From: Longimicrobiaceae bacterium
GTDB lineage: Bacteria > Gemmatimonadota > Gemmatimonadetes > Longimicrobiales > Longimicrobiaceae
Assembly (NCBI GenBank): GCA_036375715.1
Contig: DASVBS010000061.1
Location: 1 to 64,000 of the forward strand
Length of the DNA: 64,000 bases
Direction of reading: 5' to 3'
Shown one piece after another: positions 42,208 to 46,736 of this stretch (position 1 is the stretch's first letter; each line of letters opens with the position of its first letter). A program made the translations under genes and the position numbers. Below the pieces are notes generated by a model that saw nothing but the letters and a program-made list of their open reading frames with translations, was not told the DNA's origin and ran no database searches.

Positions 42208-43062
42208 GTGCCTTCCCTCTACATCGTCTCCACGCCGATCGGCAACCTGGGCGACATCACGCAGCGCGCCATCGAGGTGCTGCGTTCGGTGGACGTCATT
42301 CTGGCGGAGGATACGCGCCGCACGGGGATGCTGCTGCGACACCTCGGCATCGAGGGGAGGCTGATCTCGGCCCACGAGCACAACGAGTCCGCGCGGGCGC
42401 GGCTGGTGGCCGAGCTGCTCGCGGAGGGGAAGGACGTGGCGCTGGTCTCGGACGCGGGAACCCCGCTCCTCTCCGACCCGGGAGCGCGCCTCGTGCGCAG
42501 CGCGATCGAGGCGGGGTTCGACGTGGTGCCCGTCCCGGGCGCCTCGGCGCTGCTCACCGCGCTGGTGGCCTCGGGCATCTCGGCGGATCGCTTCACCTTC
42601 TACGGCTTCCTTCCGCGCAGGGGCGGGGCGCGCGACGCCCTTCTCCGGGAGATCGCCCGCTCCCGGTACACGAGCGTGCTCTACGAGGCACCGCAACGGG
42701 TTGCTCAGCTCCTCGAGGACCTGCGTGTACACGCCGGCGAACAACGGCAGGTGGTCCTCGCGCGGGAGCTGACCAAGCTCCACGAAGAGTTTCTCCGCGC
42801 GCCACTGGGAGAGGCTTTGTGGCGCGTCCGCGAGATCGAGCCGCGGGGGGAGTACGTGGTGATCGTGGAGGGCGCGGCCGAGGATCCGGAGGCGGCAGCG
42901 GGCGAGGCCGAAGCCGCCCGCACCCTGGCCCGGGCGCTTCTCTCCGCGGGAGTCTCGCCCAGCACCGCGGCGCGAGAGCTACGCGAGCGGCTGAACATCC
43001 CCCGTAACGAGGCCTACCAGCTGGTGCAGGAGATCGCCTCCGGCTCGGCGTCGGATGCCTGA
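42208..43062 (+). CDS. rsmI: 16S rRNA 2'-O-ribose C1402 methyltransferase
   Basis: 284 residues of the tetrapyrrole-methylase fold. Diagnostic blocks: LYIVSTPIGNLGDITQRAIEVL, ILAEDTRRTGMLLRHLGI, VALVSDAGTPLLSDPG, VPVPGASALLTALVASG, FYGFLPRRGGAR and ARELTKLHEEF. RsmI modifies the ribosomal P-site with RsmH. The C-terminal HTH-like region (AARELRERLNIPRNEAYQLV) is common in the family. The GTG start gives the expected MPSLYIVSTPIGN. Confidence 0.95.
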   Translation: MPSLYIVSTPIGNLGDITQRAIEVLRSVDVILAEDTRRTGMLLRHLGIEGRLISAHEHNESARARLVAELLAEGKDVALVSDAGTPLLSDPGARLVRSAIEAGFDVVPVPGASALLTALVASGISADRFTFYGFLPRRGGARDALLREIARSRYTSVLYEAPQRVAQLLEDLRVHAGEQRQVVLARELTKLHEEFLRAPLGEALWRVREIEPRGEYVVIVEGAAEDPEAAAGEAEAARTLARALLSAGVSPSTAARELRERLNIPRNEAYQLVQEIASGSASDA

Positions 43063-43137: not shown

Positions 43138-43377
43138 ATGACCGTAGACAAGGCAATTTTTCAGGACGAACGCGGGCGAGGTTGGCTCGTGGAGATTCTC
43201 TATGGCCATCCCGCCCCCACGGAGCGGGGGATCTTCGCCGCGCGCTTTCTCTGCCCAGAAGACCCCAGCGAGCCTGTGCGGGTCGGCTACATCTTTCAGG
43301 CGATGCTCGACCCGCCGCACGAGGAGGCGCTGCGCGAGGCGCTCGCCGAGGCGGAGCCGGCCCGAGCGATCGGATGA
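43138..43377 (+). CDS. Unrecognised 79-residue protein coupled to the JAMM-helicase gene
   Basis: Short acidic, apparently cytosolic protein (MTVDKAIFQDERGRGWLVEI; AMLDPPHEEALREALAEAE). No Cys, no membrane helix and no recognised domain; predicted as a beta-strand half followed by a helix. Its stop overlaps the ATG of the helicase (ATGA at 43374-43377), so translation is coupled and a functional link is likely. Codon choice matches the neighbours, which supports it as real. The function is unknown. Confidence 0.7.
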   Translation: MTVDKAIFQDERGRGWLVEILYGHPAPTERGIFAARFLCPEDPSEPVRVGYIFQAMLDPPHEEALREALAEAEPARAIG

Positions 43378-45908
43378 GCACGAACTCCGCGGCGCTGATC
43401 GCCGACCGTGAGCTCACCCTGAGCCCGGTTGCCGCGGAGCGGATCCGGCGGGAGGTCGCGCGCGCCCATGGCAACGAGGTCTCGTTTCTCGCGCGCGTTG
43501 GGGACGACGGGGAACTGTTGGAGCCGCGGGTGGTCGCCCGCGGCAACAGCACGGCCGTGCTGGCAGCGGTGCGAAATCCGGATCCAGGTGGCGTGCTGGT
43601 GCACAACCACCCATCCGGGGTGCTCGAGCCCTCGCACGCCGACCTGGCGGTGGCGCAGCGCCTCTGGGAGATGGGGCTCGGCTTTGCGATCACTAACAAC
43701 GAGGCGAGCAGTCTGTACGTCGTGCTCGCCCCGCCCGAGGAGGGCCCGGCGCGCCGGCCGATCGACCTGGACAGCCTGGAGCGGGACCTGGCGCCGGAGG
43801 GACCGATCGCCCGCACGCACGCGGCCTACGAGGATCGTCCGCAGCAGCGCGAGCTGAGCCGGCTGGTGGGCACGCTGTACAACGAGGGTGGGATCGGGAT
43901 CGCCGAGGCGGGTACTGGAACAGGCAAATCGATCGCCTACCTGCTCCCGGCAATCCGCTGGGGCCTGCTCAACAAGGAGCGGACCGTCGTCTCCACCAAC
44001 ACGATCAACCTGCAGGAACAGCTCGTCCGCAAGGATCTCCCGTTTCTTCGTTCCGCCCTGGGGGAGGACTTCCGCTTCACCCTGGTGAAGGGGCGCTCCA
44101 ACTACATATCGATCCGGCGGGCACGGCTGGCGTGGGAGAGCGCGCCCTCTCTGCTCCCCGACGATCGGCAGCAGGAGCTGCAGACGATCATGGAGTGGCT
44201 GGAGGAGACGCAGGACGGCTCGCTGTCCGACCTGCCGTTCCGGCCATCGGCTGAGGTGTGGGACGAGGTTGCCTCCGAGGCGGACGTCTGCTTGCGCACC
44301 CGCTGCCCGCATTTCGAGCAGTGTTTCTATCAGCGAGCGCGCCGCGAAGCGGCCACCGCGGACGTTCTGGTGGTGAACCACCACCTGCTCTTCTCCGACA
44401 TCGGGGTCCGGCAAGCACAGGGGAATTACGACGCGCCCGCTGTCCTCCCTCGATACGGGCGCCTGATCCTGGACGAGGCGCACAACCTGGAGGACGTCGC
44501 CACCCGGCACCTGGGTGCGCTCGTCTCCCGTCGTAGCCTTTTCCGAGTGCTTAGCCGGCTGGAGCACCGCGGCCGCGGAGTGTTTCCCGCGCTGGCCAAG
44601 GCGATCACCAGCGGCCGGTGGGACCTGCTGGCGCAGGACGCGGCGGACCTGCTGGCCGAGAAGCTGTTCCCGGCGGTGGAGGGTGCGCGCAACGCGGCTG
44701 GCCAGGTGTTCGACCACCTCGAGGAAGTGTTGGGCCAACAGGGTGACGGGGTGCTGCGCATCGACGAACGGTTCAACAGGCATCCGGTCTGGTCAGTGGG
44801 CCTCAAGGAGGCCCTGGACAATCTGTTGGTGCACCTGCACACCCTCTTGCAGGGGATGGATCTCCTGCGCGAGCGCATCGTGGTGGACGAGGAGGCGCGC
44901 CACGCCCTGGAGGCTCAGCTGCTCGAGCTGCGGGGGGCGGCGAATCGTCTCGATGCCGCCACCTTCGCGCTGCGATCGACGCTGAAGCCGGCAGAGGGAG
45001 GGCTCGAGATGGTACGCTGGATGGAGCTGCGCCGCGGTGCGCGGGGCAGGGAGTCGAACATCAGCCTGGCCGCCGCTCCACTCGACCTGTCCGGTATGCT
45101 GCGGGAAGCGCTCTTCGACCGTCTGCCCACCATCGTCATGACCTCCGCGACCCTGGCGACCCGACGTGATTTCGGGTTCCTGCGCGAGCGACTGGGGTTG
45201 ACGGAGGAGCATCCGCTGCGAGAGGCGATCTTCCCCTCGCCCTTCGATTTCGAGCACCAGGCGATGCTGGCGGTGCCGACCGACCTGCCTGTTCCCGGTG
45301 GAGAGGTGGATCCGCGTCACGGGGAAGCGACGGTGCGCGCGACCATCGAGCTCGCGAAGATCACCGGCGGAGGGCTGTTCGTGCTGTTCACCTCGTACCG
45401 GGCGCTGCGCGAAGCCGCCGGGGGCTTGCGTCAGCGAGGGAGCGATCGGGAGTGGCCACTCTTCGTGCAGGGGGAGGCGCCACGGGCCCAGCTCGTCCAG
45501 CGCTTCGTCGATTCGGGTAACGGGATCCTGCTGGGCACCAGCTCGTTCTGGGAGGGAGTGGATGTGCCGGGACGCCCCTTGCGGGGTCTGGTGATCCCCC
45601 GCCTCCCCTTCAAGGTGCCCTCCGAGCCGATCACCGCGGCCCGCGTCGAGGCGATCGAGGCGCGCGGCGGCAACGCATTCACCAGCTATATGCTGCCCCA
45701 TGCGGCGATCCGCCTGAAGCAGGGCCTCGGCCGACTCATCCGCTCGCGCTCCGACTACGGCGTGGTGCTCCTCCTGGACGCGCGCATCGTCAAGAAGGCC
45801 TACGGAGCCTACCTGCTCGAATCCCTCCCCCCCGCGCGCACGGTGGTCGGACCGTGGAGGGAGGTGAGGGGGGAGATGGAGGCGTTCTATCGGAATTTTG
45901 AATTTTGA
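43374..45908 (+). CDS. Fusion of a JAMM/RadC-like domain and a DinG/XPD-type helicase
   Basis: 844 residues. Residues about 15-118 form a JAB/MPN domain: E35, then H77-N-H79-PSG, S87 and D90 exactly in the HxH-x7-S-x2-D JAMM pattern used by RadC-like and deubiquitinase-like zinc proteins. Residues about 150-844 are an XPD/DinG superfamily 2 helicase: Walker A AGTGTGKS (180-186), STNTINLQEQL, DEAH box LILDEAHNLEDV, TSATLA, GTSSFWEGVDVPG and the final QGLGRLIRS motif. Iron-sulfur Cys C306, C311 and C317 are present with canonical spacing, but the first ligand position is S246. The last residues (RNFEF) come from a heptamer repeat. Probably repair of branched or damaged DNA; the JAMM role is unknown. 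Confidence 0.9.
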   Translation: MSTNSAALIADRELTLSPVAAERIRREVARAHGNEVSFLARVGDDGELLEPRVVARGNSTAVLAAVRNPDPGGVLVHNHPSGVLEPSHADLAVAQRLWEMGLGFAITNNEASSLYVVLAPPEEGPARRPIDLDSLERDLAPEGPIARTHAAYEDRPQQRELSRLVGTLYNEGGIGIAEAGTGTGKSIAYLLPAIRWGLLNKERTVVSTNTINLQEQLVRKDLPFLRSALGEDFRFTLVKGRSNYISIRRARLAWESAPSLLPDDRQQELQTIMEWLEETQDGSLSDLPFRPSAEVWDEVASEADVCLRTRCPHFEQCFYQRARREAATADVLVVNHHLLFSDIGVRQAQGNYDAPAVLPRYGRLILDEAHNLEDVATRHLGALVSRRSLFRVLSRLEHRGRGVFPALAKAITSGRWDLLAQDAADLLAEKLFPAVEGARNAAGQVFDHLEEVLGQQGDGVLRIDERFNRHPVWSVGLKEALDNLLVHLHTLLQGMDLLRERIVVDEEARHALEAQLLELRGAANRLDAATFALRSTLKPAEGGLEMVRWMELRRGARGRESNISLAAAPLDLSGMLREALFDRLPTIVMTSATLATRRDFGFLRERLGLTEEHPLREAIFPSPFDFEHQAMLAVPTDLPVPGGEVDPRHGEATVRATIELAKITGGGLFVLFTSYRALREAAGGLRQRGSDREWPLFVQGEAPRAQLVQRFVDSGNGILLGTSSFWEGVDVPGRPLRGLVIPRLPFKVPSEPITAARVEAIEARGGNAFTSYMLPHAAIRLKQGLGRLIRSRSDYGVVLLLDARIVKKAYGAYLLESLPPARTVVGPWREVRGEMEAFYRNFEF

Positions 45909-46105
45909 ATTCTTGATTTTGAATTACGAATTACGAATTACGAATTACTTGCACATGCTCGTCATCCGAGCGAAGCGAAGGATCCCGATCGATGCCAAGG
46001 CCCGCGAGGGATCCTTCGCTACGCTCAGGACGACAGAGGGGCTAATGATGGCTGCCAGCAACGAACAAAGTAATTCGTAATTCGTGATTCGTAATTCGCA
46101 GTTCG
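45894..46105. repeat. Heptamer-bounded element F, hybrid array with REP-like core
   Basis: The left array (45894-45948) starts with AATTTTG-type units and switches to AATTACG units. The right array (46071-46105) is TAATTCG-type in opposite orientation. The core carries an inverted repeat GCGAAGGATCCC (45975-45986) with GGGATCCTTCGC (46008-46019), inside longer GTCATCCGAGCGAAG / CTCAGGACGAC arms of the widespread GAGCGAAGCGAAG repeat type. It overlaps the end of the helicase gene. Confidence 0.9.
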
Positions 46106-46133
46106 AGGCCCAACATTGGAATATCGAAATTCT

Positions 46134-46736
46134 GTGAAGATCGTCTGCGTTGGCCGCAACTATTTGGCGCATGCCCGGGAGCTCGGAAACGAGATGCCCG
46201 AGCGGCCGCTGATCTTTCTCAAGCCGCCGTCGGCGGTGATCGGCAGCGGTGAAACGATCCTCCTGCCGACGGAGTCCAACCGGGTGGAGCACGAGGCGGA
46301 GATCGCGGTGATCATCGGGCGGCGCTGCTCACGGGTGCGAGCGGAGGATGCGCTCGCCTACGTGGGGCAGTATGCTCCGTTGAACGACGTAACCGCACGC
46401 GACCTGCAGCGCATGGACGGGCAGTGGACGCGGGCCAAGGGATTCGACACCTTCTGTCCGATCGGGCCGGCCGCGCCCGCTGACGGGATGGATCCGTCCG
46501 CGCTGGAGGTAATCGGGCGGGTCAACGGCGAGGTGCGCCAGCGCGGTCGCGCTTCGCAGATGGCCTTTCCCATCCCGGTGCTGATCGAGTACATCTCGGG
46601 GATCATGACGCTCGAGCCGGGCGACGTGATCGCCACCGGCACGCCCGCGGGCGTGGGGCCGCTGGAACCCGGGGACACGGTGGAGGTCGAGATCCCCGGA
46701 ATCGGTATTCTCTCGAACCCGGTGCGCGCACGATGA
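46134..46736 (+). CDS. Fumarylacetoacetate hydrolase (FAH)-family protein
   Basis: 200 residues. FAH-fold markers: KIVCVGRNYLAHARELGN, PLIFLKPPSAVIG, the metal-binding VEHEAEIAVIIG (Glu pair), NDVTARDLQR (Asp), ARAKGFDTFCPIGP-like Lys-Gly-Phe-Asp segment and IATGTPAGVGPLEPGD. The short form corresponds to acylpyruvases, oxaloacetate decarboxylases or 2-hydroxyhepta-2,4-diene-1,7-dioate isomerases, which cannot be separated by sequence reading. GTG at 46134 gives the family start VKIVCVGRNY; TTG 46116 is an alternative lying at the repeat edge. Its stop overlaps the lspA start. Confidence 0.9.
   Translation: MKIVCVGRNYLAHARELGNEMPERPLIFLKPPSAVIGSGETILLPTESNRVEHEAEIAVIIGRRCSRVRAEDALAYVGQYAPLNDVTARDLQRMDGQWTRAKGFDTFCPIGPAAPADGMDPSALEVIGRVNGEVRQRGRASQMAFPIPVLIEYISGIMTLEPGDVIATGTPAGVGPLEPGDTVEVEIPGIGILSNPVRAR

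Follow-up and report, generated by a model that had tools for sequence, protein, structure and literature searches.

A RadC/JAMM domain fused to a DinG/YoaA-type helicase in Gemmatimonadota, and its retention, decay and loss across the phylum

RadC has been known for decades, and its function is disputed. Its fusion to DinG/RAD3-like helicases was mentioned in 2017 in a paper which noted that those JAB domains with known biochemistry are peptidases, argued that RadC is unlikely to have a ubiquitin-tail groove and proposed a role in nucleic-acid processing (PMC5512222). A more recent review names RadC-like DinG as one of ten DinG subgroups (section 3.8) and gives a model of the protein from Desulfuromonas soudanensis; no biochemistry or demonstrated activity is reported for the subgroup (Cheng, 2025; PMC11981726). 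According to this review, the RadC-like N-terminus has a putative metal site of one glutamate, two histidines and one aspartate and is followed by a YoaA-like DinG helicase, HolC is absent from the organisms concerned, and a DALI search with a relative returned metalloproteases and no nucleases. Other subgroups described there have an N-terminal exonuclease or endonuclease, and one with a pseudo-exonuclease is named pExoDinG. Within the literature searched, no text other than this review uses the term 'RadC-like DinG'. A preliminary description of the present locus had considered the fusion undescribed, which these two papers show to be wrong; the peptidase and nuclease options that it offered are the two discussed in the literature, and its analogy with other DinG proteins that bear DnaQ-type modules at the N-terminus is supported.

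In this study, we analysed a 64 000-nucleotide stretch of a Longimicrobiaceae genome (the window) that encodes a RadC-like DinG. The protein comes from Gemmatimonadota, a phylum with 0 mentions in the main text of the review. That the architecture is already known limits its interest; the main addition here is the pattern in which the domain is kept, decayed or lost across one phylum. This natural series of intact, dead and missing RadC domains on a helicase of an understood type provides a direct route to the function of RadC-type JAMM domains.

The gene translates as one unbroken 844-residue frame (Table 1) in which, as had been proposed from the letters, a JAMM domain and a DinG-type helicase are joined, as the translation, PF04002 and the DinG/YoaA models confirm. 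The protein is a genuine fusion, with a complete helicase behind the RadC/JAMM domain, and GC3 is alike in the two parts (0.88 and 0.85). The start at 43374 is accepted because similarity to homologues begins at residues 6–14; a longer, TTG-started frame of 908 residues is unneeded.

Table 1. Coordinates of the fusion gene, its motifs and the adjacent genes in the window
Feature	Position	Strand	Basis or conservation
rsmI, upstream of the helicase gene	42208-43062		
79-residue ORF, stop overlapping the helicase start (ATGA)	43138..43377	+	conserved neighbour
RadC-like DinG gene, RadC/JAMM + DinG/YoaA/XPD-type helicase, 844 residues + stop	43374..45908	+	frame translation, profile matches, homologues
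N-terminal RadC/JAMM domain, about residues 13-120	43410..43733	+	PF04002, AlphaFold fold, Foldseek
JAMM glutamate E35	43476..43478	+	found in 96/98 domain sequences
HNHPSG, residues 77-82, with putative metal-binding H77 and H79	43602..43619	+	each His in 97/98 domain sequences
SHAD, residues 87-90, with S87 and putative metal-binding D90	43632..43643	+	S87 in 96, D90 in 95 of the 97-98 sequences reaching there
DinG/YoaA-type helicase region, about residues 145-840	43806..45893	+	NF053712, DinG models, PF13307, Foldseek
Walker A region EAGTGTGKS, residues 178-186	43905..43931	+	K185 invariant in alignments
S246, aligned with the first of the four Fe-S cysteines in other DinG/YoaA proteins	44109..44111	+	alignments
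Other three Fe-S cysteines C306, C311, C317	44289..44324	+	invariant in alignments
DEAH box, residues 367-370	44472..44483	+	D367, E368, H370 invariant in alignments
Fumarylacetoacetate-hydrolase-family gene, downstream	46116-46736		

The JAMM signature of the preliminary description (E35, H77xH79, S87 and D90, with the HNHPSG form) was recovered at every position in the translation. The search of the N-terminal region against PF04002 that it had proposed gave a significant match (residues 1–139, E = 1.1e-7, 32.2 bits against a cut-off of 22.1, with only residues 72–103 aligned), and the same family is matched by 12 of the 12 members of the domain alignment. A profile of that alignment retrieves the structure of C. 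tepidum RadC (2qlc; E = 1.9e-6) and pairs with the canonical RadC of the same genome at a probability of 96.7% (hhalign). The NCBIfam equivalog/subfamily cut-offs for RadC (TIGR00608 and NF000642) are missed by the fused domain (28.6 bits versus 180 and 24 versus 133.85). An AlphaFold2 model of residues 1–139 built from four aligned sequences (mean pLDDT 80.9) has a JAMM-type topology, in which E35 lies beside strand 36–42, the HxH motif ends strand 74–78 and S87 and D90 start helix 88–99. Five chains of 2qlc are the top Foldseek matches (best E = 1.4e-5, probability 1.00), followed by Pyrococcus JAMM1, AF2198, Rpn11 homologues and bacterial Ubl-deubiquitinase complexes; the TM-score to the best 2qlc chain is modest, about 0.46–0.50, and thus establishes fold and topology rather than fine geometry or close superposition. 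The N-terminal domain as modelled has the JAMM/RadC fold, and the predicted clustering of the metal site agrees with the earlier expectation, as judged from topology and fold matches rather than distances.

The genome itself, a draft assembly of 87 contigs that is 95.2% complete, also carries a separate canonical RadC of about 240 residues (L039:1159-1881; C84:5984-6343, 152.7 bits), so the fused domain is not simply the RadC of this genome. The two share HNHPSG, the metal site and, with 2qlc, the fold; they differ in that the canonical copy stands alone and the RadC models align to the fused domain over only part of their length.

The helicase part is equally recognizable. Residues 145–840 match the YoaA model NF053712, the best NCBIfam model, at E = 2.4e-166 and DinG models at E ≤ 1e-106, and the best Foldseek match of the whole-protein AlphaFold model (mean pLDDT 78.4) is E. 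coli DinG with ssDNA (6fwr; E = 2.4e-36). Helicase architecture and motifs are thus those of E. coli YoaA and DinG, but scores remain below the curated equivalog cut-offs (555.1 bits versus 680 for NF053712), and the gammaproteobacterial relatives differ in lacking a RadC domain (L036 and L037, and likewise L038, all matched only from residues 130–139 on). YoaA works with HolC, whereas HolC (PF04364) gave no match in the window's genome at its 95.2% completeness. The window protein is the sole PF13307 match in that genome, which gave no second DinG-type helicase match. Similarity to the PADLOC profile of the type IV CRISPR DinG (CasDinG) is confined to the helicase part. ExoDinG, the DinG of Bacillus and Staphylococcus with a 3'-5' exonuclease, also has an extra enzymatic domain at the N-terminus, but this is of DnaQ type and unrelated to the RadC/JAMM domain; the ExoDinG model TIGR01407 matches the window protein only from model position 244, i.e. 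over the helicase. Of the features given for RadC-like DinG in the review, those found here are the fusion itself, the glutamate, two histidines and aspartate, the JAMM-type fold and the absence of a HolC match.

DinG and YoaA proteins otherwise have four Fe–S cysteines. In the window protein the first is replaced by serine, and in this it differs from RadC-like DinG as described in the main text of the review (PMC11981726). According to the review, the motif can vary at one position (CCHC or CCCS, for example) and domains with three cysteines still count as Fe–S domains, and the three cysteines plus S246 found here fall within the three or four cysteines given for the subgroup. The first position is serine in all aligned order-level relatives, whether or not they have a RadC domain, and cysteine in class-level relatives, Fusobacterium and two gammaproteobacteria. 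Because serine occurs order-wide irrespective of the domain, the substitution follows, on these alignments, the lineage and has no connection with the RadC domain. The Fe–S cluster itself is not certain in the window's order, since the motif there reads SCCC.

Matches to the protein were obtained in 96 of the 99 genomes nearest the window, mostly near full length or in two pieces. In a phylum-wide sample of 249 genomes, 204 gave a match to the N-terminal domain, a count that includes a minority of weak matches (E near 1e-4), mostly in family f7, which may be canonical RadC; a whole-protein search of five f7 genomes gave no helicase match. Full-length fusions recur throughout the order, and relatives across the phylum mostly show 51–68% identity over nearly the full length. 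The identity matrices of domain and helicase are strongly correlated (Mantel r = 0.88; the largest of 2000 permutations reached 0.48), which indicates that the two parts evolved together. On this comparison the fusion appears to be old and vertical in the sample. A recent insertion of the domain is ruled out by the same correlation together with the similar GC3. A mobile-element origin was also rejected: a scan of viral contigs was empty, and no plasmid record matched at least 80% of the query.

All five JAMM residues (E/H/H/S/D) are intact in 95 of the 98 aligned domain sequences of the phylum, which implies selection on the metal site and is hard to explain otherwise. One of the three remaining rows (L017) is a frame break and not a loss. 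The domain is degenerate in three Gemmatimonadota helicases: the JAMM positions read K/H/R/L/E in G063 (L116) and, by tblastn alignment, S/I/H/S/E in G061 (L075, genus g32), and a decay resembling the latter is seen by eye in G057 (L074, also g32). Nine further helicases have no recognizable RadC domain, seven of them in family f5 (G113, G117, G119, G122, G174, G177 and G191) and two in family f3 (G026 and G044). The helicase of G044 (L072 / L069) has a different N-terminal extension of ~200 residues in an open frame. Outside the phylum, the N-terminal region of the Fusobacterium vincentii helicase (L052) aligns to the family (hhalign probability 72%, E = 3.3e-5); the initial expectation of a full RadC-like DinG is ruled out by its five JAMM positions (S/R/T/S/E). 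The gene concerned (L052:2932-5400) lies on a 2.1 Mb record that was deposited as a plasmid and is chromosome-sized. When the intact, degenerate and absent states are mapped on a 51-row helicase tree, 6 changes are required versus 13.1 for shuffled labels; the number of events is approximate, since Fusobacterium, G044 and G026 sit on long branches of uncertain placement. In most of the aligned sequences both the domain and its metal site are retained, and yet the domain is dispensable for the helicase; it looks like a usually selected but losable module.

We consider it somewhat more probable than any other reading, at slightly better than even confidence, that RadC-like DinG is a genome-maintenance XPD/DinG helicase which carries an accessory metal-dependent hydrolase in cis. 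The chromosomal helicase would probably travel along single-stranded DNA in the 5' to 3' direction and serve general genome maintenance, such as at stalled forks, R-loops or damaged DNA. The N-terminal JAMM site, probably occupied by zinc, would constitute the accessory hydrolase and, being held in cis, would act on whatever the helicase meets or exposes. As to the substrate, the choice is close to even, and we lean very slightly to nucleic acid over peptide, since nucleases occupy this place in other DinG proteins and RadC has been argued to lack the ubiquitin-tail groove. The wider fold matches point to a protease, and the position in the DinG family and the kinship with RadC point to nucleic acid.

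The main competitor, possible but clearly less probable, is that the JAMM domain is a protease for DNA-bound or crosslinked proteins or for a ubiquitin-like modifier, and that the helicase delivers it to the obstruction. The best fold matches outside RadC (Pyrococcus JAMM1, AF2198, the Rpn11 homologues and the Ubl-deubiquitinase complexes) argue for it, as do the metalloproteases returned without nucleases by the DALI search in the review and the peptidase activity of the characterised JAB domains (PMC11981726; PMC5512222). However, the nearest relatives by both sequence and fold are RadC proteins, for which the groove is argued to be absent (PMC5512222), and no ubiquitin-like partner gene is present among the annotated neighbours of the helicase gene. 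In a more specific and improbable form, the protein would by itself clear protein obstructions from DNA, by means of a JAMM metalloprotease linked in cis with an XPD-type helicase; if true, this would be a bacterial functional counterpart of the eukaryotic helicase- and protease-dependent repair of DNA–protein crosslinks.

Against a hydrolase of either kind stands the doubtful alternative that the domain is mainly structural or regulatory, binding DNA or a partner, with catalysis secondary or absent. The ligands are lost and the fold is seemingly kept in G057, G061, G063 and Fusobacterium vincentii, from which it follows that the domain can persist without catalysis, and the pExoDinG subgroup of the review offers a parallel (PMC11981726). 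The homology of the Fusobacterium region is, however, no more than moderately supported by its hhalign probability, and the near-universal retention of the five JAMM residues in the phylum speaks against such a role as the general one. Where the ligands are gone, the domain is likely to act non-catalytically; this is less likely for the window protein, for which the accessory hydrolase remains the preferred reading. An assembly, frame or annotation artefact, which the draft state of the genome might suggest, is practically negligible given the recurrence of the architecture in many independent genomes at the identities above and the like GC3 of the two parts.

Beyond the genes in Table 1, the annotated neighbours of the helicase gene are thioredoxin, lspA and an aminotransferase. 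Of 20 other genomes in the window's family, 18 carry the 79-residue ORF, and in 16 of these 18 its coordinates place it beside the helicase gene; it was not found in the other genomes of the order searched outside that family, and it has no Pfam or NCBIfam match. By position alone, it is a possible partner of the helicase. On the 3' side of the helicase gene (45893-46132), tandem GAATTACGAATTAC-like units flank an inverted repeat, GAGCGAAGCGAAGGATCCC/GGGATCCTTCGCTACGCTC. With up to 2 mismatches allowed, the core pattern is seen twice in the window (0.07 expected); with up to 1 allowed, a search of the genome yields seven copies, and 0 for the reversed control. Since the pattern exceeds both expectation and control, this stretch looks like a low-copy repeat element.
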